Shown here piece after piece: positions 20,986 through 31,079 of a DNA stretch of 41,991 bases (position 1 is its first letter; each line of letters opens with the position of its first letter). The translations under genes were made by a program, and so were the position numbers. Source of the stretch: Gammaproteobacteria bacterium (lineage in GTDB: Bacteria; Pseudomonadota; Gammaproteobacteria; Xanthomonadales; Xanthomonadaceae); NCBI GenBank assembly GCA_025356635.1, contig JANXRY010000034.1, positions 1 through 41,991 on the forward strand. The letters are read 5' to 3'. Below the pieces are notes generated by a model. That model saw only the letters and a program-made list of their open reading frames with translations. It had not been told where the DNA came from and did not search any database.

Positions 20986-22206
20986 TTAGATCAACTTGCT
21001 CAGGATCGCCGCGCCGGCGATCCACACACCAATCATGGTGCCAAGGTTGGTCAACAGGAAATTCAACAGCACGCGGGTAACGCGATTTCGCCACCAGCCG
21101 CGGATCTGGCTGGCGTCGTCGCGGACATTCAGGAAATCCGCGTAGGTTGGTTTGCGCAGGCGAGCCTCGACCCAGGCGCTGAAGGCGCCAGCGGGTACGC
21201 CGGGGTGGAACGGTTTGAGCGGAGCCATCACCGTTGCCGTGAGAATGCTCAATGGGTGTCCGCCAGCAATCGTGCAACCTAGGGCTGCCAACAAGCCGGT
21301 GGTCAGTACCCAACGCAGTAACAGGCCGGTGCCGAGCGTGGCGCCGCCGTGGTAATAACCCCAGCCAATGGCGCTCGCGAACAGTACGGTGAGGGCGATG
21401 GTGAACCACGGGATAGCGCTCTTGCGCGGCACTGTGTCGAGTTCGATCAGTGCGGAATCGGTGGCATCAACGTCGTTGCGCAGGTGTTCGGCCAGACCCT
21501 TCAGGTGGCCGGCGCCGATTACCGCCAGCACTTCGCGGGCTTTGCCTGCGTCGCCGAGTTGGCGGAGTTTTGCGGCCATGTAACGGTCGCGCTCGCCGAT
21601 CACCGCCTCGAAAAGTTCCGGTGTCTGTTGCGCGAATTCGCCGAAACTCGATTCCAGCAAATCGCCCTGCTTGAGTTTTTCGATCTCGCCTTCTTCGATG
21701 TTCTCGTTGACCAGCAAACTGCCGCCGAGGCCGGCCATGAGCTTGCTACGGCCCCAGAAACCCAACCGACCCCAGGCGCGCTTGAAAGTGATGCCGACAT
21801 CGCGGTCAATCGTTACCAGTTCCAGATCGCGCTGCTTTGCTCCAACAGCCGCCGCTTTCAGTTCGGCGCCAGGCTCGATGCCCAGCTGCTCCGCGAGCCG
21901 ACGCTGATACGCGGCCAAGGCCAGGTTCGCCGCGACCAGGCCGATCTTGCCTTCGCGAATGATCTGGAACAGATCGAGCTTGTGCAACATGTCCGGCTCG
22001 GTCAATGCGCGCAGTCGGTTGCCATCCAATTCCACGGCAATGGTGTCGTAGGCGCCACTGGCAACGCAGTGTTCGACCGCATCGACGCTGGCGCGGGAGA
22101 CGTGCGCGGTGCCGAGCAAGGTATAGCGAACGCCACCGCGTTCGACGATGGCGTGCGGTTGCCCGGCGAGGACGTCGGAGCATGTTTCAGGGATCGGAAT
22201 GTTCAA
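20986..22206 (-). CDS. TraB/PrgY-family membrane protein
   Basis: This is a TraB-domain protein (pheromone-shutdown TraB/PrgY family, also in archaea and eukaryotes). The N-terminal soluble domain has the conserved GTAHVS motif near the start and VIGAGHLKGLAEHL near residue 230. Both carry the His/Gly residues thought to form a metal-type active site related to the TIKI/GumN group. The C-terminal 140 residues hold about four to five membrane helices. No ATG precedes the conserved domain. A TTG at 22206 overlaps the aguB stop (TTGA) and gives LNIPIPETCSD as N-terminus; a GTG at 22269 inside aguB is the alternative. It is last in the run with aguA-aguB and convergent with the RND operon. Its cellular role is unknown. 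Confidence 0.82.
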   Translation of the reverse strand: MNIPIPETCSDVLAGQPHAIVERGGVRYTLLGTAHVSRASVDAVEHCVASGAYDTIAVELDGNRLRALTEPDMLHKLDLFQIIREGKIGLVAANLALAAYQRRLAEQLGIEPGAELKAAAVGAKQRDLELVTIDRDVGITFKRAWGRLGFWGRSKLMAGLGGSLLVNENIEEGEIEKLKQGDLLESSFGEFAQQTPELFEAVIGERDRYMAAKLRQLGDAGKAREVLAVIGAGHLKGLAEHLRNDVDATDSALIELDTVPRKSAIPWFTIALTVLFASAIGWGYYHGGATLGTGLLLRWVLTTGLLAALGCTIAGGHPLSILTATVMAPLKPFHPGVPAGAFSAWVEARLRKPTYADFLNVRDDASQIRGWWRNRVTRVLLNFLLTNLGTMIGVWIAGAAILSKLI

Positions 22207-23087
22207 TCGCGGTACCGCCGGAGCAAATCCTGGTAAGCATCGATACGCCGGTCGCGTAGAAACGGCCACATGCGACGCACGTTTTCGCTTCGCGCAAGGT
22301 CGATCTCGTGGATCAGCAACTCCGGCGCGTCGATGCCGGCTTCGGCGAGCAATTCGCCTTGTGGCCCTAGGATATGGCTGCTACCCCAGAAGCGGATACC
22401 GGCGGCACCTAGCGGCGACGGCTCATGGCCCGTGCGATTGCAGCTCAGCACCGGCAGGCCGTTGGCCACGGCGTGGCCGCGATGACTGAGCATCCAGGCA
22501 TCGCGTTGGCGAGCGTTCTCGGCAGTATCATCGCTTGGGTCCCAGCCAATCGCGGTGGGGTAGAGCAGCAGGTCGGCGCCAGCCAGCGCCATCATCCGCG
22601 CGGCTTCTGGATACCACTGATCCCAGCAGACCAGCACGCCCAGACGACCGACGCTGGTGTTGATCGGCGTGAAGCCGAGATCACCTGGGGTGAAGTAGAA
22701 TTTTTCGTAGAAGCCCGGATCATCCGGGATGTGCATCTTGCGGTACTTGCCGGCCAGCGTGCCGTCGCTTTCCAGAACCACTGCCGTATTGTGATAAAGC
22801 CCGGCGGCGCGCCGCTCGAACACCGAGCCGACGATCACCACGCCATTCTGTTTCGCCAACTGGCCCAACCGCTCGGTAGTTGGGCCTGGCACGGCCTCGG
22901 CGCGATCGAATTCGGCCACGCTTTCGTGTTGGCAGAAGTAGGCGCTGTTGTGCAGTTCCTGCAACAGCACGAGTTTCGCGCCGCGTGCTGCGGCTTCGGC
23001 GACACGCTGTTCGATCACCGCGAGGTTGGCCTCGGTGCTGCCGTGGTCGGTTTCCTGCACCAGCGCAACAGTGAGCATTTTGTTCAT
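22203..23087 (-). CDS. aguB: N-carbamoylputrescine amidase
   Basis: This is a 294-residue nitrilase-superfamily amidase that converts N-carbamoylputrescine to putrescine, CO2 and ammonia. The catalytic triad is visible as Glu44 (LLQELHNS), Lys117 (YRKMHIP) and Cys154 (VLVCWDQWYPE). The WDQWYPEAAR context is characteristic of AguB among nitrilases. It starts 4 nt inside the aguA stop (overlap 23084-23087), so the two enzymes of the agmatine route are translationally coupled. Confidence 0.95.
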   Translation of the reverse strand: MNKMLTVALVQETDHGSTEANLAVIEQRVAEAAARGAKLVLLQELHNSAYFCQHESVAEFDRAEAVPGPTTERLGQLAKQNGVVIVGSVFERRAAGLYHNTAVVLESDGTLAGKYRKMHIPDDPGFYEKFYFTPGDLGFTPINTSVGRLGVLVCWDQWYPEAARMMALAGADLLLYPTAIGWDPSDDTAENARQRDAWMLSHRGHAVANGLPVLSCNRTGHEPSPLGAAGIRFWGSSHILGPQGELLAEAGIDAPELLIHEIDLARSENVRRMWPFLRDRRIDAYQDLLRRYRD

Positions 23088-24115
23088 GCGATCAGGCCTT
23101 CAGGAAGTTGCATGGTCAGGCAGTGCAGGCTGCCGTTTTGCCAGATCAGTGGCCGGCAGGGAATCGCGACGATCTCGCGATCCGGGAACGCCGTGCCAAG
23201 CACGGCAGCGGCGCGGCCATCGGCTTCGTCGCCATAGGCTGGCATCAGCACTGCGCCGTTGACGATCAGGAAATTCGCATACGAGGCCGCAAGCCGGCGA
23301 CCATTGTCGAGAATGGGTTTTGCCCAGGGCAATTCGAATAACCGATACGACCTGCCATCAGGCGTCTTGAATGCAGAGAGTTCCGACGCCATGGCCTGCA
23401 ACTCGGGGAAGTGCGAATCGGTTTGATCCTGACAGCCCTGGTAAACGATGGCATCAACGGCGGCGAAGCGGGCCAGGGTGTCGATATGCGCGTCGGTGTC
23501 GTCGCCTTCCAGATATCCGTGATCAAGCCAGAGCGTGCGGGTTTGCGCCAGCGAGGATTCGAGTAGGCCGGTGATGTCGGCGCGAGAAAGGTTCGGATGG
23601 CGTTCGTGCAGGCAATGCCAGGTCGAAAGCAGCGTGCCGAGGCCGTCGGTTTCGATGGCGCCGCCTTCGAGTGCGAAATCGATCCGCTCGCGCCGCGCGT
23701 GTTGGAAAATTCCGCGTTCGAAAAGTGTCACGACGATCCGATCATCCAGTCCGGCCTCGAACTTGCCGCCCCAGGCCGTGAACTGGAAATCGAGCATGCG
23801 GAACCCTTGGTTTTCGCGCAGGCTGATCGGGCCGGAATCGCGCAGCCAGGTGTCGTCGTAGGGCAACTCGACGAATTGCACTCGATCCAGATCAACACCA
23901 GCGGCGGCAAGCAAGCCGGACGCATGCGAGCGCAAGTCATCGTTTGCCACGCAGATCAGCGCGCGTTCGAAGCGAGTGATCGCCGCCACCAGGGCGACAT
24001 ACGCCGCCTCGACCTCAGTCAGTCGGGCCGCCCAGTCGGTGCCGGCATGCGGCCAAGCCATCAGGACGGCGGATTGGGATTCCCATTCCGCCGGGAAACG
24101 AAGGCTGGCGGTCAT
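23084..24115 (-). CDS. aguA: agmatine deiminase
   Basis: This is a 343-residue member of the peptidylarginine-deiminase-like family. It hydrolyses agmatine to N-carbamoylputrescine and ammonia. The likely nucleophile is Cys332 near the C-terminus (NGSLHCLTM). The family's Trp/Asp/Glu/His stretches are present: 'DDTWLRDSGPISL', 'FQFTAWGGKF', 'LEGGAIETDGLGTLL' and 'WLDHGYLEGDDTDAHID'. Together with aguB it gives a putrescine route from arginine via agmatine; arginine decarboxylase is not in the window. The ATG at 24115 lies 3 nt after the upstream small exported-protein gene, so it is probably part of the same transcript. Confidence 0.95.
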   Translation of the reverse strand: MTASLRFPAEWESQSAVLMAWPHAGTDWAARLTEVEAAYVALVAAITRFERALICVANDDLRSHASGLLAAAGVDLDRVQFVELPYDDTWLRDSGPISLRENQGFRMLDFQFTAWGGKFEAGLDDRIVVTLFERGIFQHARRERIDFALEGGAIETDGLGTLLSTWHCLHERHPNLSRADITGLLESSLAQTRTLWLDHGYLEGDDTDAHIDTLARFAAVDAIVYQGCQDQTDSHFPELQAMASELSAFKTPDGRSYRLFELPWAKPILDNGRRLAASYANFLIVNGAVLMPAYGDEADGRAAAVLGTAFPDREIVAIPCRPLIWQNGSLHCLTMQLPEGLIA

Positions 24116-24803: not shown

Positions 24804-25430
24804 CTAGGGCAGGTAGGCCCGGGTCAGGGTGTTGAGATGCAAGCGTTCATCGTCGCGCATGAACGGTGAGACCAGCATCATCACCTGGACGATGCCCATG
24901 CGGATGGCCTCCTGTTCATCCTTGTCGCCGCGAACGCTGGAGTAATTGAGCCAGAACGTGGCCAGCACCAGGATATTGGTGGCGGTCGCCTCGATTTCGG
25001 TCGCCGACGCGCGCATCACGCCGGCCTGGACCAGGCCGCGCATCACCGTGGTGGCATTGCCCGCCGCCCGCTTGAGGATGCGGGCAAAGCGTATCCGCAG
25101 CTGCCGATTGCGCGACAGGATGTCCACCAGGTCGCGATAGAGGAAGCGATATTCCCAGATGCACTCGAATACCCGGTGCAGTTGCAGCCAGATGTCTTCC
25201 AGCGTCGGTAGCCGGCCTTCCGGGGCGACCAGGGCAGAGTCCATGCGCTCTTCGTAGCGCTGGAACAGGTGCTCGATGATGTCGTCCTTGTTGCGGAAGT
25301 GGTAGTACAAATTGCCGGGGCTGATCTCCAGCTCGTCGGCGATATGGTTGGTCGTGACATTGGGCTCGCCCTGTTCGTTGAACAGAGCCAGGGAGGTATC
25401 CAGGATGCGTTGCCGGGTCTGCCGCGCCAT
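24804..25430 (-). CDS. TetR/AcrR family transcriptional regulator
   Basis: This is a 208-residue one-component repressor. The N-terminal TetR helix-turn-helix lies at about 5-50: RQRILDTSLALFNEQG, then NHIADELEISPGNLYYHFRNKDDI. The C-terminal ligand domain is mostly helical. The frame is open far upstream, but that is chance; ATG at 25430 begins the family N-terminus, 5 nt after the acyl-CoA-binding protein stop, so the two are one operon. With a divergent fatty acyl-CoA reductase 415 bp away, an acyl-CoA or fatty-acid ligand is a reasonable guess (compare FadR-type TetR regulators), but the ligand is not visible in sequence. Confidence 0.9.
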   Translation of the reverse strand: MARQTRQRILDTSLALFNEQGEPNVTTNHIADELEISPGNLYYHFRNKDDIIEHLFQRYEERMDSALVAPEGRLPTLEDIWLQLHRVFECIWEYRFLYRDLVDILSRNRQLRIRFARILKRAAGNATTVMRGLVQAGVMRASATEIEATATNILVLATFWLNYSSVRGDKDEQEAIRMGIVQVMMLVSPFMRDDERLHLNTLTRAYLP

Positions 25431-25435
25431 GGCGA

Positions 25436-25693
25436 TCAGCCGGCCAGCTTCTTGACCATGTCCACGTATTTCTTCATCGCCTGCTCCTGCGACGTGCCCT
25501 CGAGCTTTTCCCAGGCCTCGTACTTGGCACTGCCGACGAAGTCGAAGAAACCCGGTTTGGGGCCTTTCACGTCGCCTTCGGAGCCCTGCTTGTAGAGGGC
25601 ATACAGGCGCAGCATGGTGTCGTTGTCGGGGCGTTCGGCCAGGGACATGACGTCCTTGGCGGCCTTCTCGAACAGTTTCTGGAGGTCGGACAT
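25436..25693 (-). CDS. acyl-CoA-binding protein
   Basis: This is an 85-residue four-helix ACBP. Hallmarks: FEKAAKDVMSL in helix 1, 'LRLYALYKQGSEGDVKGPKPG' (helix 2 and the acyl-CoA loop), 'KYEAWEKLEGTSQEQAMKKYVDMVKKL' (helices 3-4). The Tyr and Lys contacts of the CoA pocket (YKQ, K in KYEAW) are kept. ACBPs carry long-chain acyl-CoA in the cytosol. They are universal in eukaryotes and scattered in bacteria. ATG at 25693 is preferred over the open frame up to 25846; GGAAA lies upstream. It is directly followed by the TetR gene and is divergent from the acyl-CoA reductase, pointing to a shared acyl-CoA pool. Confidence 0.92.
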   Translation of the reverse strand: MSDLQKLFEKAAKDVMSLAERPDNDTMLRLYALYKQGSEGDVKGPKPGFFDFVGSAKYEAWEKLEGTSQEQAMKKYVDMVKKLAG

Positions 25694-25707
25694 GACGTTG
25701 GTTTCCA

Positions 25708-25720
25708 GGCAGTGACTGCC
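25708..25720. promoter_or_regulatory. palindrome upstream of ACBP, candidate TetR operator
   Basis: GGCAGT-g-ACTGCC is a 13-bp palindrome 14 bp upstream of the ACBP start, inside the 151-bp divergent region. Its position fits an operator for the TetR protein encoded in the same operon. No second copy is seen on the reductase side, and the arms are only 6 bp, so this is tentative. Confidence 0.35.
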
Positions 25721-25844
25721 GTTGGTGATACCACGGCCCCCGGGGTCGGTCAACGCAATCCCAGTCTCGTTTGTCAGCGTCGGTCCAGTCTGGCAAGTTA
25801 GACGCTTGGGGCGGCGCTGCCAGCCCGGGAAAAGTGAGACCACC

Positions 25845-27833
25845 ATGAGCTATTTCGTCACCGGCGCAACCGGATTTCTGGGCCGTTTCCTGGTCAGCAA
25901 GCTGCTCGCGCGCAAGGGCACTATCCACGTGCTGGTGCGCAAAGGCTCGGAAAAGAAACTCGAAGCCATCGGCGCCAAGATGGGCTGGGACCGCAAGCGG
26001 ATCGTGCCGGTGATCGGCGACCTCGGCCAACCCAGGCTCGGCCTGAGCGCGGCGCAGATCAAGACCTTGTCCGGCAAGGTCACGCACTTCTTCCATCTGG
26101 CGGCCATCTACGACTTGTCTGCCAGCGCTGAATCCCAACGCGTCGCCAATATCGAAGGCACGCGCCACGCCATTGAGCTCGCGACCGCGATCAAGGCCGG
26201 CTGCTTCCACCACACCAGTTCTATTGCGGCGGCTGGCTTGTATCCGGGCGTGTTCCGCGAAGACATGTTCGAAGAGGCCGAAGGCCTGAAAGACCCGTAT
26301 CTCAAGACCAAGCATGAGTCCGAGGGGCTGGTGCGCAAGGAATGCAAGATTCCGTTCCGGATCTATCGCCCATCGATGGTGATCGGCCATTCGCAAACCG
26401 GCGAGATCGATAAAATCGACGGCCCGTACTACCTGTTCACGCTGATCAAGAAGATCCGCGAGACATTGCCGCAATGGGTGCCAACGCTGGGCATCGAAGG
26501 CGGGCGCATCAACGTGGTGCCGGTGGATTTTGTGGTTGATGCGATGGATTACATCGCCCACAAGCGTGGTCTAGACGGCAAGTGCTTCCATCTGGTCGAC
26601 CCGAATCCGATGCGCTTCGGCGAACTGATGAACACCTTCTCGCGCGCCGCCCACGCGCCGGAAATGACCATGCGCCTCGACGCGCGAATGCTGGCGGTCA
26701 TCCCAGGCGCGGTGCGCAGTGCCGTGGTCAACCTGCCGCCAGTGAAGCGTTTCACCGATTTGATACTGCGCGACCTGAAAATCCCGCGCTCGACCCTTTC
26801 CTTCATCACCTATCCGACCCGATTCGATACCCGCGAAGTCGAACGCGCGCTCAAGGGCAGCAAGATCGTGGTGCCAGCGTTGGGCGAATACGCCTGGCGG
26901 ATCTGGGATTACTGGGAGCGCCACCTCGACCCGGACCTGTTCGTCGATCGTTCGCTGCGCGGCAAGGTTGAGAACCGGGTCGTGCTGATCACCGGCGGTT
27001 CTTCTGGTATTGGCAAAGCGTCGGCGATCAAGGTTGCCGAGGCTGGGGCCAAGGTCATCATCGTCGCTCGTGGCGAAAAAGAATTACACGAAACCCGCGA
27101 CGAAATCATCGCGCTCGGCGGCAAATGCTGGGCCTACACCAGCGATCTCACCGACCTTGCCAGTTGCGATGAATTGGTCAAGAAAGTCCTGAGCGAGCAC
27201 AAGCACGTGGACATTCTGGTCAACAACGCCGGCCGCTCGATTCGCCGCTCGGTCGAGGCCAGCTACGATCGTTTCCATGATTTCGAGCGCACCATGCAGC
27301 TGAATTATTTCGGCAGCCTGCGCCTGATCATGGGTTTCCTGCCGACCATGACGCAACGCCGCAAGGGCCATATCGTCAACATCAGCTCGATCGGCGTGCT
27401 GGCCAGTTCGCCGCGCTTTTCCGCCTACGTCGCTTCGAAAGCAGCGCTCGATGCGTTCAGCCGCTGCGCCCAGGCCGAGTTCAGCGGCAAGAACATCGCC
27501 TTCACCACCATCAACATGCCGCTGGTGAAAACGCCGATGATCGCGCCGACCAAGATGTACGACTCGGTACCAACGCTGACTCCGGACGAGGCCGCCGACC
27601 TCGTAGTCAAGGCGATCATCGAGCGGCCGAGCCGCGTCGCCACGCGTACCGGCATCTTCGCCGCAACCTTGAACGCCTTGGTACCGAAGGCCTACGAGGT
27701 GATCATGAACACCGCGTTCGAGATGTTCCCGGATTCAGCAGCGGCCAAGGGCGATCGCAAGGCCCTCAAGAGCGAGCACTCCACCAACGAACAGGTCGCG
27801 TTTGCCGCGCTGATGCGCGGCGTGCATTGGTGA
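25845..27833 (+). CDS. two-domain fatty acyl-CoA reductase (alcohol-forming), Marinobacter type
   Basis: This is a 662-residue fusion of two Rossmann modules. The N-terminal half is an extended SDR/thioester-reductase module: NADPH motif GATGFLG (7-13), YxxxK at Tyr152/Lys156 (YLKTK), and the FRIYRPSMVIGHS segment. The C-terminal half is a classical SDR: GGSSGIG (384-390), NNAGRSIRRS, and YVASK with Tyr528/Lys532. The order, length and long shared phrases match, from memory, the Marinobacter fatty acyl-CoA reductase that makes fatty alcohol from acyl-CoA via the aldehyde, the first step to wax esters. These phrases include 'NIEGTRHAIELA', the LPQWVPTLGIEGGR run, the GRSIRRS to FERTMQLNYFG stretch and the final FAALMRGVHW. 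ATG at 25845 is preferred over an open frame from 25722. It is divergent from ACBP-TetR. Confidence 0.9.
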   Translation: MSYFVTGATGFLGRFLVSKLLARKGTIHVLVRKGSEKKLEAIGAKMGWDRKRIVPVIGDLGQPRLGLSAAQIKTLSGKVTHFFHLAAIYDLSASAESQRVANIEGTRHAIELATAIKAGCFHHTSSIAAAGLYPGVFREDMFEEAEGLKDPYLKTKHESEGLVRKECKIPFRIYRPSMVIGHSQTGEIDKIDGPYYLFTLIKKIRETLPQWVPTLGIEGGRINVVPVDFVVDAMDYIAHKRGLDGKCFHLVDPNPMRFGELMNTFSRAAHAPEMTMRLDARMLAVIPGAVRSAVVNLPPVKRFTDLILRDLKIPRSTLSFITYPTRFDTREVERALKGSKIVVPALGEYAWRIWDYWERHLDPDLFVDRSLRGKVENRVVLITGGSSGIGKASAIKVAEAGAKVIIVARGEKELHETRDEIIALGGKCWAYTSDLTDLASCDELVKKVLSEHKHVDILVNNAGRSIRRSVEASYDRFHDFERTMQLNYFGSLRLIMGFLPTMTQRRKGHIVNISSIGVLASSPRFSAYVASKAALDAFSRCAQAEFSGKNIAFTTINMPLVKTPMIAPTKMYDSVPTLTPDEAADLVVKAIIERPSRVATRTGIFAATLNALVPKAYEVIMNTAFEMFPDSAAAKGDRKALKSEHSTNEQVAFAALMRGVHW

Positions 27834-27855: not shown

Positions 27856-28833
27856 TCAGTTGCACTGCTGCCAGCGAACCGGCAGGGCGGAGTCCTGTGG
27901 TGGGTCGAGTTGCAGGCGCGAGTAACGCAGCTCTTCGTAGCCGACCAGCACCCGGCAGGCTTCATCGATCAAGTGCTGGTCCTTGCCGTCGGACTGCGAC
28001 AGCGTCACCAGCATGGTTGATTGGGCCGACCATACTGCAGTTTCAACTTGCGTGATCGAGGAAATCTGCTTGGCCGCCTCGGCGCGTCGTCGCGCCCGGT
28101 CCTGGTCGGTCAGGCTGGCGATTTCGGCCAAGGCCTTGCGCGCCTCATCGAGTTGTAGGCGAGTGGCATTTTCGGCCTCGCTGGGCTTCGCAGCTGGCGC
28201 CGCAGACTCTGTCCGGAGCGAATCAGCGGCAGCGCCACCACCGGAAGGCAACTGCATGTTGACGACCAGGAATACGCCGATGCCAAGCCCGAGGCTGGCA
28301 AATGCGCCGTTGGTCAGGCCCTTGCGCGACTGTGCAAGCGCTTGGCTGGCGACCGCTGCCTGCGTGGATTCAGGAAGGTACGACTTGAGTTTCGACCAGA
28401 GCGTGGCGCCATCGAGTATTTCCACGTCATGGCGCGTAGCGATTGCGGTCGCGGTTGCATCGGTGCTGCCGAGCGTGATCAGGAGTCCACGCACAGCACC
28501 TTTCAAGCCCAATTGGTTGGCGAAGTCGCGAACATCAGTCGCACTGATCTGGTAGGCAGTGCCGTGTTTGTAGGCCAGTAATACTTTTTTGCCATCGCGT
28601 AGCAACAGGTGTTCGCTATCTTCACTGGCGGATGGCTCCTTGGATTCAGCTGCATAGCCTTCACGAATCAACGCCTCCAGCACCAAGCTGATGCATTGCC
28701 GCCACTTCATGTTGGCCAGTGCCTGGATCCCGAGCGTGGTCTCTTCTTTCCGGCGCCGGTTTACTCCGAACCAGATGCCCGTCGCTGCCAAGCCAAGCAG
28801 GGTTACTGCCACCGCCAGGAACGCTGCTGACAT
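27856..28833 (-). CDS. membrane-anchored protein with degenerate Mrr-like nuclease domain
   Basis: This 325-residue protein has an N-terminal membrane helix (about 3-23). A domain at about 40-150 resembles the Mrr_cat restriction-endonuclease fold. 'LVLEALIREGYAAE', then 'EHLLLRDGKKVLLAYKHG' (Lys89 at the ExK position), then 'VRDFANQLGLKGAVRGLLITLG' follow the Mrr pattern. The usual Asp of the D-G-x-D strand is absent (SEH instead), and the Gln before the Lys is Ala, so nuclease activity is doubtful. A second membrane helix lies at about 172-192. The C-terminal 130 residues form an Ala/Arg-rich coiled coil, then a domain ending VRWQQCN. GGAG precedes the ATG by 7 nt. It converges with the reductase gene. 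Function unknown. Confidence 0.72.
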   Translation of the reverse strand: MSAAFLAVAVTLLGLAATGIWFGVNRRRKEETTLGIQALANMKWRQCISLVLEALIREGYAAESKEPSASEDSEHLLLRDGKKVLLAYKHGTAYQISATDVRDFANQLGLKGAVRGLLITLGSTDATATAIATRHDVEILDGATLWSKLKSYLPESTQAAVASQALAQSRKGLTNGAFASLGLGIGVFLVVNMQLPSGGGAAADSLRTESAAPAAKPSEAENATRLQLDEARKALAEIASLTDQDRARRRAEAAKQISSITQVETAVWSAQSTMLVTLSQSDGKDQHLIDEACRVLVGYEELRYSRLQLDPPQDSALPVRWQQCN

Positions 28834-29037: not shown

Positions 29038-29625
29038 TCAACCCTGCGGTGAAACCGGCTTCCGGGCCTTGGGCAACGCCGGGCGGGCCGACTTGCGGGT
29101 CTTTGCAGCGGGCTTGGCGATCGCTTTCTTGGCAGGTCTCGTGGCTTTCTTGGCTACTGCTACGGCTTGGGTCGCCGGGGCCGCGCCTTTCTTCAGGGCC
29201 GCCGTCAGTGCATCGACGCGGGCACTGAGCGCGTTGATCTCGTCGCGTCCGGGTATGCCGAGGCGGTTGAGTGCGCGTTGCACGCGATCCTCGAAGACTT
29301 TCTCGAGCTTGTCCCAGGTATCAATGGTGCGTTCGCGCACCACGCCGACCCGGCCTTCGACGGCATCGCGCACGGCATCGACCCTGCCGGTCGCCAGCTG
29401 ACGGGTGGTCTTTTCGATGTTCATGCCTTCCTTGACCAGCGCCTCGAACATTTTCGATCCTTCGCCCTGAGCACGGGTGAATGCGCCAACGCCGGCCATC
29501 CAGATCTGCTGGGCGGATTCGACTAGCGAACGGGAAACCTGTTCGGCCTTGGCCTGAAGCTCGGCGGCAGGGGACTGTGCGGCATTCGCCGTCTTGGCGC
29601 GAACGGTTTTCTTGAGCTTGGCCAT
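29038..29625 (-). CDS. phasin family protein (PhaF/PhaI-like)
   Basis: This is a 195-residue polyhydroxyalkanoate granule-associated protein. After a basic start it has the phasin helix region (about 25-130: QIWMAGVGAFTRAQGEGSKMFEALVKEG, and so on). A short coiled-coil (DEINALSARVDALTAAL) follows. The C-terminal tail is Lys/Ala/Pro-rich (AKKATRPAKKAIAKPAAKTRK) like the histone-like tail of PhaF, which binds DNA and helps granule segregation. I start at the ATG at 29625 (MAKLKKTVRAK). A GTG at 29703, 8 nt after the lipase stop, would add 26 residues and cannot be excluded. It probably shares a transcript with the upstream patatin gene. Confidence 0.85.
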   Translation of the reverse strand: MAKLKKTVRAKTANAAQSPAAELQAKAEQVSRSLVESAQQIWMAGVGAFTRAQGEGSKMFEALVKEGMNIEKTTRQLATGRVDAVRDAVEGRVGVVRERTIDTWDKLEKVFEDRVQRALNRLGIPGRDEINALSARVDALTAALKKGAAPATQAVAVAKKATRPAKKAIAKPAAKTRKSARPALPKARKPVSPQG

Positions 29626-29711
29626 GGTCTTGGTCTCGTTGGTGTCAGTGCGGACGGATGCCGCAGATGAGACCAATCTGACGATCTTGTCTAGAGCATT
29701 CACACCATTGC

Positions 29712-30959
29712 CTAGGCCGATGTCCTGGATCGCCGATGGCGGTCAGTCGAAAGGTCCCGCTCAATCTCATCCAGTGCACGGTGCAGGCGCGCGGTTGCTT
29801 CAGTGTGTCGCGGTGGTCGCTGCAGCCCATCCGCGACTGATCGCGTTGCCGCATCCAGCACTTCATCGCGCAGGCGCAGGCCGTGGCGCGCGAGCATTGG
29901 CGCCAAGACCGCCCGGCGCCGGCGCAGGTCGTCAAGCGTACGCCGGAACGCGTGTTCGCACAGGCGCTGGCGGGACGAGTAGCTGAAAATATTGGTGAAG
30001 AACATTTCGCCATCGTCGTCGTCAGGTTCAAGGACCATCTGGTCGACGGCAGGATACTGCTGCGCGTATTTGGCCAGGCCAACCTGCATCCGTGATTGCA
30101 GCAGCGTTCGGAAAGTCTGCGACAACACCACGGGCAGACCTGCCTCGGAGAGTTTGTCCATGCCATTGGGGCGTTGCCCGCCACGGCGGGCATTGAAGGG
30201 TACCAACGGGTTGATGCCGAGCATTAGGTCGATGCCGTGGTCGAGCACGACCGAGGCATGCATGGTCCGGCGCAAGGCTCCATCGACGAAATGGCGGCCG
30301 CGAATTTCCACGGGAGGATACAGGCCGGGCAGGGCGGCACTGGCCTGGATGGCGCGCGAAATCGGCACATCCTCCCAGTCGGGGCTGCCGAAGCGGACGG
30401 CCTCGCCTGAATCTAGGTCCACGGCGACCAAAAACAGGCGATGTTCCAGTTCGCGAAAATCGTTGCTGCGACCATGCCGGCTGAAGACTTCGCGCAGGAA
30501 TTTCTCGATTGCCGCGTTGTCGAACAAGCCGGTCGGCACCAGCCCGCCCAGGCTTCGGAACAGTTCGCCCAGGTGCGAACCCGTAGGATTGGCGAGCGCG
30601 TCGATTCCCCAACGCCAGGCCAGCCCGGGCAGGTTGGCGGCGCGCCGCGCATATTCGAGGAAAGCCGGGCGCAGGAAGATTTCCGGTTGGAACTTCACTT
30701 CGTGGCTGTCGCCGGTGATGAAGATGCGATACATCTCGGCCGTGCTCAGGCCGTTGGCCAGGCCTGCTGCCAGGAACGAGCCGGAACTTACGCCAACATA
30801 GACTTCCAGCCGGGTCGGGTCGAAGCCTTCGATCGCTTCGTCCAGCGCACGCAAGGCGCCAAGTTCGTACATTCCCCCGATCGGTCCGCCGCCGGCGATC
30901 GCGAGGCCTATACGTCCCTGGCTTAGGCGCGGCTTTCGGGCAGGTTGTAGTACGAGCAT
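29712..30959 (-). CDS. patatin-like phospholipase family protein
   Basis: This is a 415-residue patatin-domain lipid acyl hydrolase. The oxyanion loop is GGGPIGGMYELGAL (23-36), the nucleophile is Ser58 in GVSSG, and the dyad Asp is Asp226 in VDGAL, so all catalytic parts are intact. Start: ATG at 30959 with GGAGA upstream; a longer frame to 31001 lacks support. No signal peptide is visible, so it is cytoplasmic or granule-associated. Because the next genes encode a phasin and, nearby, a PHA-system protein, a role in storage polymer or lipid turnover is plausible, but the substrate could equally be phospholipid. Confidence 0.9.
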   Translation of the reverse strand: MLVLQPARKPRLSQGRIGLAIAGGGPIGGMYELGALRALDEAIEGFDPTRLEVYVGVSSGSFLAAGLANGLSTAEMYRIFITGDSHEVKFQPEIFLRPAFLEYARRAANLPGLAWRWGIDALANPTGSHLGELFRSLGGLVPTGLFDNAAIEKFLREVFSRHGRSNDFRELEHRLFLVAVDLDSGEAVRFGSPDWEDVPISRAIQASAALPGLYPPVEIRGRHFVDGALRRTMHASVVLDHGIDLMLGINPLVPFNARRGGQRPNGMDKLSEAGLPVVLSQTFRTLLQSRMQVGLAKYAQQYPAVDQMVLEPDDDDGEMFFTNIFSYSSRQRLCEHAFRRTLDDLRRRRAVLAPMLARHGLRLRDEVLDAATRSVADGLQRPPRHTEATARLHRALDEIERDLSTDRHRRSRTSA

Positions 30960-31079
30960 GCTATGTCGGTCTCCAGAAGGCGTCCGGATTGTAGCCCGCA
31001 ACTATTTCCGGGCAAGGGGACCGGGGTCACGGAGTTTCAATGGGCCAGGCAAATTGAGCCAGGAAGCGAGTCAAAACGG

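Follow-up and report, generated by a model that had tools for sequence, protein, structure and literature searches.

A probable neutral-lipid storage locus around a two-domain fatty acyl-CoA reductase, with a TetR-family protein as its putative regulator

The window, which is the whole stretch of 41,991 nucleotides that was analysed, carries a two-domain fatty acyl-CoA reductase (FAR) divergent from an acyl-CoA-binding protein (ACBP) and a TetR-family regulator, and our results suggest that these genes, together with a phasin and a patatin-like lipase, are probably a locus for neutral-lipid (wax-ester) storage, with the TetR protein as its regulator and a palindromic element as its likely operator. 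The protein families, active-site residues, linkage, co-inheritance and the element were computed, and from these we infer the biochemical and regulatory steps.

Layout of the locus and its proteins

The genes are ordered TetR (-), 5 nt, ACBP (-), a divergent gap and FAR (+) (Table 1). A sequence-only reading had proposed this arrangement of a TetR protein, an ACBP, a gap of 151 bp and a 662-aa double-SDR protein, and all of its coordinates and families were borne out. It had also taken the trio for a compact unit; the trio is real, but the span 24804-27833 is too narrow, since the phasin and patatin genes at 29038-31001 are part of the same conserved locus. The Mrr_cat-domain protein was judged to be a neighbour outside the storage unit, and a gene similar to it in length and start occupies the same position in three congeners. 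For the phasin, the probable start is ATG 29625 and not the listed GTG 29703, with which the coding region would extend into the operator-like element; loci L198 and L199 have this methionine too.

Table 1. Features of the locus (positions in the window)
Feature	Position	Strand	Remarks
TetR-family regulator, PF13972 type, 208 aa	24804-25430	-	second gene of the ACBP operon
Acyl-CoA-binding protein (ACBP), 85 aa	25436-25693	-	PF00887 match
Divergent promoter region, exactly 151 bp	25694-25844		without a copy of the operator-like element
Putative promoter pair of ACBP-TetR: TTGACC 25748-25753, 17 nt, TATCAC 25725-25730	25725-25753	-	conserved motif; weak
Putative promoter pair of FAR: TTGTCA 25771-25776, 17 nt, CAAGTT 25794-25799	25771-25799	+	second conserved motif and family alignment; weak
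Fatty acyl-CoA reductase (FAR), 662 aa	25845-27833	+	NF005539/PRK07201, two SDR domains
Mrr_cat-domain protein between FAR and phasin	27856-28833	-	profile match
Phasin (PF05597), probable ATG start at 29625, 195 aa	29038-29625	-	profile match; locus conservation
Operator-like element ATGGTGTGAATGCTCTAGAC, core 29692-29707	29689-29708	-	66 bp before the probable ATG of the phasin
Patatin-like lipase (PF01734), 429 aa	29712-31001	-	upstream of the phasin, codirectional

FAR matches NF005539/PRK07201 along its full length (residues 1-662) with 1000.3 bits, against a cut-off of 549, and consists of an N-terminal NAD_binding_4 domain and a C-terminal Acr1-like SDR domain. Both nucleotide-binding glycine motifs are present, and both active sites (S126/Y152/K156 and S514/Y528/K532) are intact and invariant in 54/54 sequences. 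Its assignment as a Marinobacter-type reductase is upheld by the family match and by 64% identity over 661 columns to the 661-aa FAR of a Marinobacter-labelled genome (L118), which serves as a stand-in for MAQU_2507, its label as given. The phylogenetic refutation test set by the sequence-only reading was survived only in part: the family model agrees with a grouping among FARs, and the tree speaks to it within FARs, as its 54 rows are all NF005539 members; there the window FAR nests within its own order and the Marinobacter-labelled FAR falls in a neighbouring clade. MAQU_2507 of Marinobacter aquaeolei VT8 and FCR1/Rv3391 of Mycobacterium tuberculosis belong to the same two-domain family, and a mycobacterial FAR (L127) is 42% identical to the window FAR over 620 columns. 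Residues 374-662 of the window FAR share 53% identity with a 296-aa Acinetobacter baumannii protein that we take to be Acr1, an acyl-CoA reductase involved in making wax esters. Excerpts of PMC3522743 describe Acr1 as a single-domain, aldehyde-forming enzyme, whereas the window FAR has a second SDR domain, and report that FCR1 expressed in Escherichia coli reduced acyl-CoA to aldehyde and alcohol. By homology, the C-terminal Acr1-like half of FAR would convert acyl-CoA to aldehyde and the N-terminal half would convert the aldehyde to alcohol. Searches of plasmids with FAR and ACBP returned only remote relatives, including an Acinetobacter Acr1-like gene.

The ACBP matches PF00887 with 108.2 bits (cut-off 28.3), and residues Y31, K35, K57 and Y76, whose roles in acyl-CoA contact we take over from bovine ACBP, are kept in 47/47 sequences, while position Y34 is tyrosine in 36 and phenylalanine in 11 of the 47. 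The protein would hold acyl-CoA; the part of PMC8174751 that treats the question calls it unclear whether prokaryotic ACBPs act like the eukaryotic ones. The regulator scores 143.8 bits against PF13972 and 48.9 bits against the helix-turn-helix model PF00440, has the solved structural relatives 3nnr and 3rh2, and would act as the local regulator of the lipid store, with an acyl-CoA or fatty-acid signal as its plausible ligand.

Linkage and co-inheritance

ACBP and FAR occur together in 97 of the 151 genomes sampled from the order and lie next to each other in divergent orientation in 90 of these 97, across nine families of this one order, so the pairing is not due to chance. Adjacency in related genomes had been set beforehand as a refutation test, which the proposed unit survived. 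The sample holds 103 FAR genomes, 98 over the cut-off and five with a partial FAR, counted without SDR matches weaker than about 260 bits and with each split gene entered only once. A wax-ester synthase (WS/DGAT) is present in 103/103 of them and, among the matches listed, in one other genome only. WS is absent from the window; its presence elsewhere in the genome was confirmed by two proteins of 425.6 and 424.0 bits (TIGR02946 cut-off 309.95). Distances of WS from the FAR locus are to be read as at least the values obtained.

The survey of neighbours covered 101 of the 103 FAR loci (G149 and G150 left out) and found TetR at 90, ACBP at 89, phasin at 62, patatin at 43, a TPR protein at 43 and WS at 30, so that relatives' loci also include the last two; these counts are lower bounds, because many stretches stop at contig ends. 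Chance would account for about 1 phasin, 2.4 patatin and 0.9 WS neighbours, with copy numbers rounded by eye from the matches listed, and none of the seven families occurred at 64 unrelated SDR loci of other taxa, a weaker control than random stretches of the same genomes. Where the locus is split, the ACBP arm (L099, L100, L205, L209) retains TetR and phasin, and the FAR arm (G011 = L204, G101, G141) retains phasin and patatin. These genes are also clustered outside the order (L119, L123, L121, L124, L064, L067). Within the stretches examined, phasin and patatin were absent from all 22 f8 loci, and FAR had neither of them nearby in G005, G091 and G026, the last at a contig end.

The TetR gene lies downstream of ACBP on the same strand in 57 of the 58 ACBP loci examined, some of which share a genome. 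Its co-inheritance was followed in a hand-picked sample of 72 genomes; of the 18 FAR genomes in it, six lack ACBP and the other 12 have a known or a split locus. The TetR gene was found in 1/48 FAR-less genomes and in 0/18 genomes with ACBP only. The pairing of ACBP with TetR that had been put forward is therefore correct as far as the shared operon goes, but not in inheritance, as TetR is inherited along with FAR and not along with ACBP.

The ACBP itself is not pathway-specific, because 18 genomes of the order sample have it without FAR or WS (WS among the matches listed). It is possible, if not the reading that we would favour, that ACBP buffers acyl-CoA in general and that its place beside FAR was inherited, with no functional tie to the reductase: the same 18 genomes also retain it without TetR, and another family has an ACBP fused with a beta-oxidation enzyme. 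This is opposed by the class-level counts, in which ACBP co-occurs with FAR in 10/12 class genomes versus 11/357 others (FAR and WS likewise in 10/12), and by loci outside the order where ACBP adjoins WS/DGAT divergently (L063, L067, L069).

The operator-like element and the divergent gap

An element of the form TAGTGTG-N4-YTCTA was found upstream of 68 of the 69 locus phasins that have more than 150 bp of upstream sequence, using a matrix trained on these same upstream regions, and 15 of the 68 are within two mismatches of a palindrome from Acinetobacter. In Acinetobacter this palindromic form, TTTAGAGT-N4-ACTCTAAA, is found next to a TetR homologue and next to the Acr1-like gene, and in the Marinobacter-labelled genome it is found upstream of FAR. 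In A. baumannii a perfect palindrome, TTTAGAGTAAATACTCTAAA, is located in the 112-bp divergent gap of the TetR homologue itself, TTTAGAGTTTTTACTCTAAA is found 158 bp before the annotated start of the Acr1-like gene, and the homologue carries ISPGNLYYHFRNK, the presumed recognition helix, identical to that of the window TetR. Upstream of FAR, there are two sites in L118 and two overlapping ones in L071, and only 2/17 FAR upstream regions outside the order have a site. A scan with the palindrome gave 26 sites in 3.63 Mb versus 8 in the shuffle, all shuffle comparisons for the element being single mononucleotide shuffles. The palindrome, with the merged consensus TTTAGWGT-N4-ACWCTAAA, is the most likely operator of TetR, as suggested by the conservation of the element and by the Acinetobacter site. 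The check for prior publication of the palindrome or of an acr1 regulator covered two Acinetobacter papers, in which 'TetR' had no occurrences.

The conserved element could instead be the site of another factor, which we consider unlikely. Such a factor would fit the lack of the element in TetR's own promoter within the order, the locus L064, which has TetR and phasin and no site, the weak site of L121, with no TetR in the locus, and the TetR homologues of Cupriavidus (L318) and Aeromonas (L319), with no palindrome nearby. It would leave aside the perfect palindrome adjoining the homologous TetR of A. baumannii, the identity of the presumed recognition helices, and the lack of both TetR and site at the phasin-bearing loci L083 and L124. 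No strong motif comparable to the phasin one emerged from the regions upstream of WS, and all six WS loci examined (two in the window genome, four in relatives) lack the element.

The sequence-only reading had placed the binding site of TetR in the gap at 25694-25844, where the regulator would repress both divergent promoters until released by acyl-CoA, with ACBP as a dedicated carrier for FAR. The conserved divergent arrangement with its short gap, the location of TetR within the ACBP operon and the two conserved promoter-like elements that face each other are what might be expected from such a switch. Of 43 distinct intergenic regions, 34 share the motif of ACBP-TetR, and that of FAR is the second conserved motif once the first is masked and is seen in the family alignment; both were graded weak, because a strict sigma-70 scan of the gap reported no promoter. 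However, neither the operator-like element nor the palindrome occurs in the gap; the element lies at the phasin, with its core at 29692-29707, and a palindromic expectation-maximisation search of the 43 regions returned promoter-like elements as its best motifs and no convincing operator. Moreover, the regulator is far under the cut-offs of the NCBIfam models of known fatty-acyl regulators (28.9 of 300 for PsrA, 26.4 of 200 for FadR of Bacillus) and was not found in the genomes that retain ACBP without FAR, so this earlier scheme now appears doubtful. For FAR, a sigma-54 promoter (TGGCA...GC) was also weighed and then dismissed, as its GC is not conserved in the family alignment.

Storage model and known systems

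In the storage model that we favour, WS/DGAT, encoded elsewhere in the window genome but within the locus in many relatives, would combine the alcohol with a second acyl-CoA; the phasin would coat the droplet and the patatin protein would hydrolyse it when the store is used. The TetR operator would sit at the phasin in the window lineage and in relatives also at a divergent TPR gene, and in some other lineages such a site would be at FAR, at the Acr1-like gene or at the regulator's own gene. A broader reading is that a TetR protein of the PF13972 type switches wax-ester and neutral-lipid storage widely among bacteria. It would act through the consensus, which would sit at the phasin in Xanthomonadales-like bacteria, at FAR in the Marinobacter-labelled genome and, in Acinetobacter, both at the Acr1-like gene and at the regulator's own gene, and the phasins of these loci would coat wax-ester droplets and not polyhydroxyalkanoate (PHA). 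We put this forward tentatively and at somewhat less than even chances, its probability having been lowered because so few FAR upstream regions outside the order have a site. Our literature search found no dedicated regulator of bacterial wax-ester genes named, and a 20-bp operator candidate common to loci in several families makes both wax-ester regulation and the role of prokaryotic ACBPs testable; it also offers a candidate native switch for fatty-alcohol and wax-ester engineering.

Comparison with known loci shows partial likeness. L118 has no ACBP or TetR within the 9.1 kb examined, unlike the window. Excerpts of PMC10351704, on Antarctic and Subantarctic sediment metagenomes, describe ACBP adjoining ws/dgat, SDRs that share 49.5-61.9% identity with MAQU_2507 and, on a few scaffolds of Betaproteobacteria and Gammaproteobacteria, a gene for a phasin or of the PHA system. 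The terms TetR and patatin have 0 occurrences in its main text, whereas the window locus has both proteins, and those excerpts describe neither a divergent ACBP-TetR|FAR arrangement nor an operator and give no counts of co-inheritance. The regulatory logic resembles that of PhaD in Pseudomonas putida, a TetR-like regulator in a storage-granule cluster that acts at a phasin promoter according to excerpts of PMC9049629. The likeness is one of role; that circuit serves a PHA store with a PHA synthase, whereas window-type loci have wax-ester genes and mostly no PhaC_N.

It is very improbable that the locus serves PHA granules, with a PhaD-like TetR and with FAR and ACBP as passengers, even though PF05597 is the PHA phasin family and PhaD controls phasin genes in Pseudomonas. 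PhaC_N had no match in the window genome (G000, a draft of 97% completeness), where class III synthases might escape the model. In a hand-picked sample of 64 genomes, whose 60 FAR genomes were chosen mostly for completeness, it was present in 9/60 FAR genomes and was not found in the other 51/60, nor in 3/3 congeners tested, and the occurrence of WS/DGAT in every FAR genome of the order sample also speaks against a PHA locus. Because no PHA synthase was found here or in those 51 genomes, the droplets that the phasin covers are probably of wax ester or triacylglycerol. Phasins are not wax-specific, since they also occur in FAR-less genomes without PhaC_N (G013, G061, G106, G031), and their presence where no PHA synthase was detected points to a coat protein for lipid droplets in bacteria.

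The core genes and their conservation

Re-annotation of the window placed the TetR regulator, the acyl-CoA-binding protein (ACBP) and the double-SDR fatty acyl-CoA reductase (FAR) at the sites given by the sequence-only reading, with a gap of 151 bp between ACBP and FAR. Family scans matched ACBP at 108.2 bits (cut-off 28.3), the TetR protein to PF13972 at 143.8 bits, and FAR over its full length to NF005539/PRK07201 at 1000.3 bits (cut-off 549). This last match and the 64% identity of the whole protein to the 661-aa FAR of a Marinobacter sp.-labelled genome (locus L118) support its assignment to the Marinobacter type. An Acr1-like protein from Acinetobacter baumannii shares 53% identity with the C-terminal half of FAR. 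The two SDR active sites and the two glycine motifs show no variation in 54 of 54 relatives. Four of the ACBP residues that we take to be acyl-CoA contacts are kept in 47/47 sequences, and the fifth position, Y34, has tyrosine in 36 and phenylalanine in 11.

Coordinates of the core genes, the operator-like element and flanking genes in the window
Feature	Position	Strand	Remarks
TetR	24804-25430	minus	208 aa; downstream of ACBP, 5 nt between
ACBP	25436-25693	minus	85 aa
FAR	start 25845		662 aa; divergent from ACBP
Operator-like element	29692-29707	minus	66 bp before probable phasin start 29625
Mrr_cat protein	27856-28833		between FAR and phasin
Putrescine-type gene pair	22203-24115		beside ACBP-TetR operon; 4-base overlap

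Our survey of 151 genomes of the window's order found FAR in 103 (98 above the cut-off, plus 5 with a partial FAR), ACBP in 115 and both in 97. The adjacency of the pair is kept in related genomes, with ACBP and FAR as divergent neighbours in 90 of these 97 (38 genera, 9 families) and a median HMM-to-HMM gap of 167.5 bp (range 81-635). Of 58 ACBP loci examined, 57 have TetR downstream in the same orientation; some of these loci share a genome. Wax-ester synthase (WS/DGAT) was found in 104 of the 151 genomes, including all 103 with FAR, and the synthase that the sequence-only reading would look for elsewhere in the window's genome is present twice, in both cases on a contig other than that of the window (425.6 and 424.0 bits vs 309.95). 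A class-level sample of 369 genomes gave FAR in 12, ACBP in 21 and WS in 21; ACBP and WS were each present in 10 of the 12 FAR genomes. In the FAR tree, a Lysobacterales-labelled locus (L117) nests among FARs of the window's order, which is thus probably Xanthomonadales/Lysobacterales. The FAR of a Solirubrobacterales-labelled MAG (L122), 59% identical to that of the window, adjoins the proteobacterial group, which reflects either transfer or mis-binning. In two loci (L241 and L312), the FAR sequence falls into two pieces in different frames, through either a genuine split or faulty assembly.

A larger locus with phasin and patatin

The sequence-only reading described a compact unit of ACBP, TetR and FAR. 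The linkage of the three stands, but the locus is larger, including phasin and patatin genes and, in relatives, genes for a TPR protein and WS. Three other species of the genus have patatin, phasin, FAR, ACBP and TetR in the window's gene order. We examined the surroundings of 101 FAR loci, that of the window plus 100 of the 102 others. TetR was a neighbour in 90 of them and ACBP in 89; phasin was found in 62, patatin and the TPR protein in 43 each, and WS in 30, against an expectation, with copy numbers rounded by eye, of about one locus for phasin, two to three for patatin and about one for WS. The fullest gene order, WS> <TPR phasin> <TetR <ACBP | FAR> <phasin <patatin, was found in G059, G066 and L117. 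Where FAR and ACBP are split, TetR and phasin stay with ACBP in four loci (L099, L100, L205, L209), joined by TPR in L099 and L209 and by WS in L209; phasin and patatin stay with FAR in three genomes (G011, G101, G141), and FAR is alone in G005, G091 and G026, the last at a contig end. Outside the order, two betaproteobacterial loci (L119, L123) hold WS (cut by the stretch edge), TPR, TetR, patatin, phasin and FAR, and L064 combines FAR with phasin, patatin, TetR and TPR; in L067, L063 and L069, ACBP is divergent from WS in place of FAR. However, all 22 loci of family f8 have at most FAR, ACBP and TetR within the stretches examined, which counts against the larger unit.

Phasins could point to polyhydroxyalkanoate (PHA) rather than wax. 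The PHA synthase domain PhaC_N was found in 9 of 60 FAR genomes tested (of the 103), one match being weak and partial. It was found neither in the genome of the window nor in those of the three congeners, although class III PHA synthases could escape this model. This rarity and the presence of WS in all FAR genomes suggest that the phasins of FAR loci coat wax-ester or triacylglycerol droplets. PhaC_N was likewise not found in four FAR-less genomes with phasin, so phasin uses in the order extend beyond wax.

The TetR regulator and its candidate operator

A TetR-alignment search of 72 hand-picked genomes gave matches in 13 of 18 FAR genomes of the order, the five misses being draft assemblies (300 to 610 contigs) that lack ACBP, and in 5 of 6 FAR genomes from other orders. 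Only one of 48 FAR-less genomes (G106) had a match, and none of the 18 among them with ACBP only. TetR is therefore inherited together with the reductase locus; of TetR and ACBP, the latter is the more independent. In G106, which has no FAR, ACBP or WS, the TetR orthologue and a phasin lie 1.5 kb apart on the same strand (C1:1065323-1067803), possibly as a relic of the locus or in a wax-independent role. ACBP adjoins phasin on the same strand in L083, in a genome without FAR, WS or TetR, and the operator-like element is absent there. In L111 (1510-4206), ACBP is fused N-terminally to a FadJ-like 3-hydroxyacyl-CoA dehydrogenase/enoyl-CoA hydratase in an 898-aa protein whose gene immediately follows that of an acyl-CoA dehydrogenase. 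This is a natural ACBP-beta-oxidation fusion; G198 and G440 perhaps have the same one, judged by open-frame length only.

EM on regions upstream of phasin yielded a very strong element, TAGTGTG-N4-YTCTA, in 68 of 69, spanning the eight families that have phasin at these loci. A threshold of 13 bits gave 73 sites in 1.70 Mb, compared with 7 in a shuffle. Of the 73, 69 lie by phasin, 3 by the TPR gene (in two cases, G032 and G146, that side yielded no phasin) and the remaining one elsewhere. The FAR/ACBP gap, where the sequence-only reading had expected the TetR site, gave promoter-like elements for which a strict sigma-70 scan provided no confirmation, and the gap holds no copy of the element; the copy in the window lies at phasin, where predicted TetR control would be placed. 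Fifteen of the phasin copies differ from the palindrome TTTAGAG-N6-CTCTAAA at no more than 2 positions, and over all loci collected this palindrome scan returned 26 sites in 3.63 Mb (8 in a shuffle). Three loci have a TPR-repeat protein divergent from phasin, with an operator-like region common to both (L117 3292-4263, L200 7298-8128, L214 6205-7080).

The A. baumannii TetR homologue is 34% identical, with an identical segment ISPGNLYYHFRNK, presumed to be the recognition helix. It is divergent from an annotated coniferyl aldehyde dehydrogenase gene (L317 4425-5985), and the 112-bp gap contains a perfect TTTAGAGTAAATACTCTAAA, which suggests that this gene encodes a fatty-aldehyde dehydrogenase of the same regulon. 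Upstream of the A. baumannii Acr1-like gene, TTTAGAGTTTTTACTCTAAA lies 158 bp from the annotated start. Outside the order, 17 regions upstream of FAR were examined, and two have palindrome sites: L118 has two, and L071 has two that overlap, with a weaker TetR match elsewhere in its genome. The element precedes phasin in L066, L067, L119 (inside the phasin/FAR divergent gap) and L123, and was not found in L083 and L124, which have phasin and no TetR. The exceptions are L064, with TetR and no site, and L121, with a weak site and no TetR in the locus; no palindrome was found near the Cupriavidus and Aeromonas TetR homologues. We infer that this TetR clade uses the palindrome as its operator.

Proposed pathway, known systems and flanking genes

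In the pathway that we propose, ACBP would buffer acyl-CoA, the Acr1-like half of FAR would convert it to aldehyde and the N-terminal half aldehyde to alcohol, and WS/DGAT would form the ester. Phasin would serve as the droplet coat, the patatin protein may set fatty acid free, and TetR would place the coat under the control of a lipid signal, in some other lineages together with the reductase. Every protein family of the locus is already known. Acyl-CoA reduction has been reported for mycobacterial FCR1, which is 40% identical to MAQU_2507 (PMC3522743), PhaD is described as a TetR-like activator at phasin promoters (PMC9049629), and whether the functions of prokaryotic ACBPs resemble eukaryotic ones is considered unclear (PMC8174751). 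ACBP, a MAQU_2507-like SDR and a phasin/PHA-system gene have been noted near ws/dgat on a few metagenome scaffolds (PMC10351704); the main text of that paper mentions neither TetR nor patatin. The literature, surveyed mostly by titles and abstract openings, yielded no description of the divergent ACBP-TetR/FAR unit. As for the candidate operator, two Acinetobacter papers checked for the word TetR do not contain it.

The Mrr_cat (restriction-endonuclease-like) protein has an apparent N-terminal membrane segment by eye, and the three congeners have a gene of similar length in its place. On the other side of the locus, the agmatine-deiminase-type and N-carbamoylputrescine-amidase-type genes, below NCBIfam equivalog cut-offs, form an apparent putrescine-forming pair, at whose place the three congeners have genes of similar length and start.
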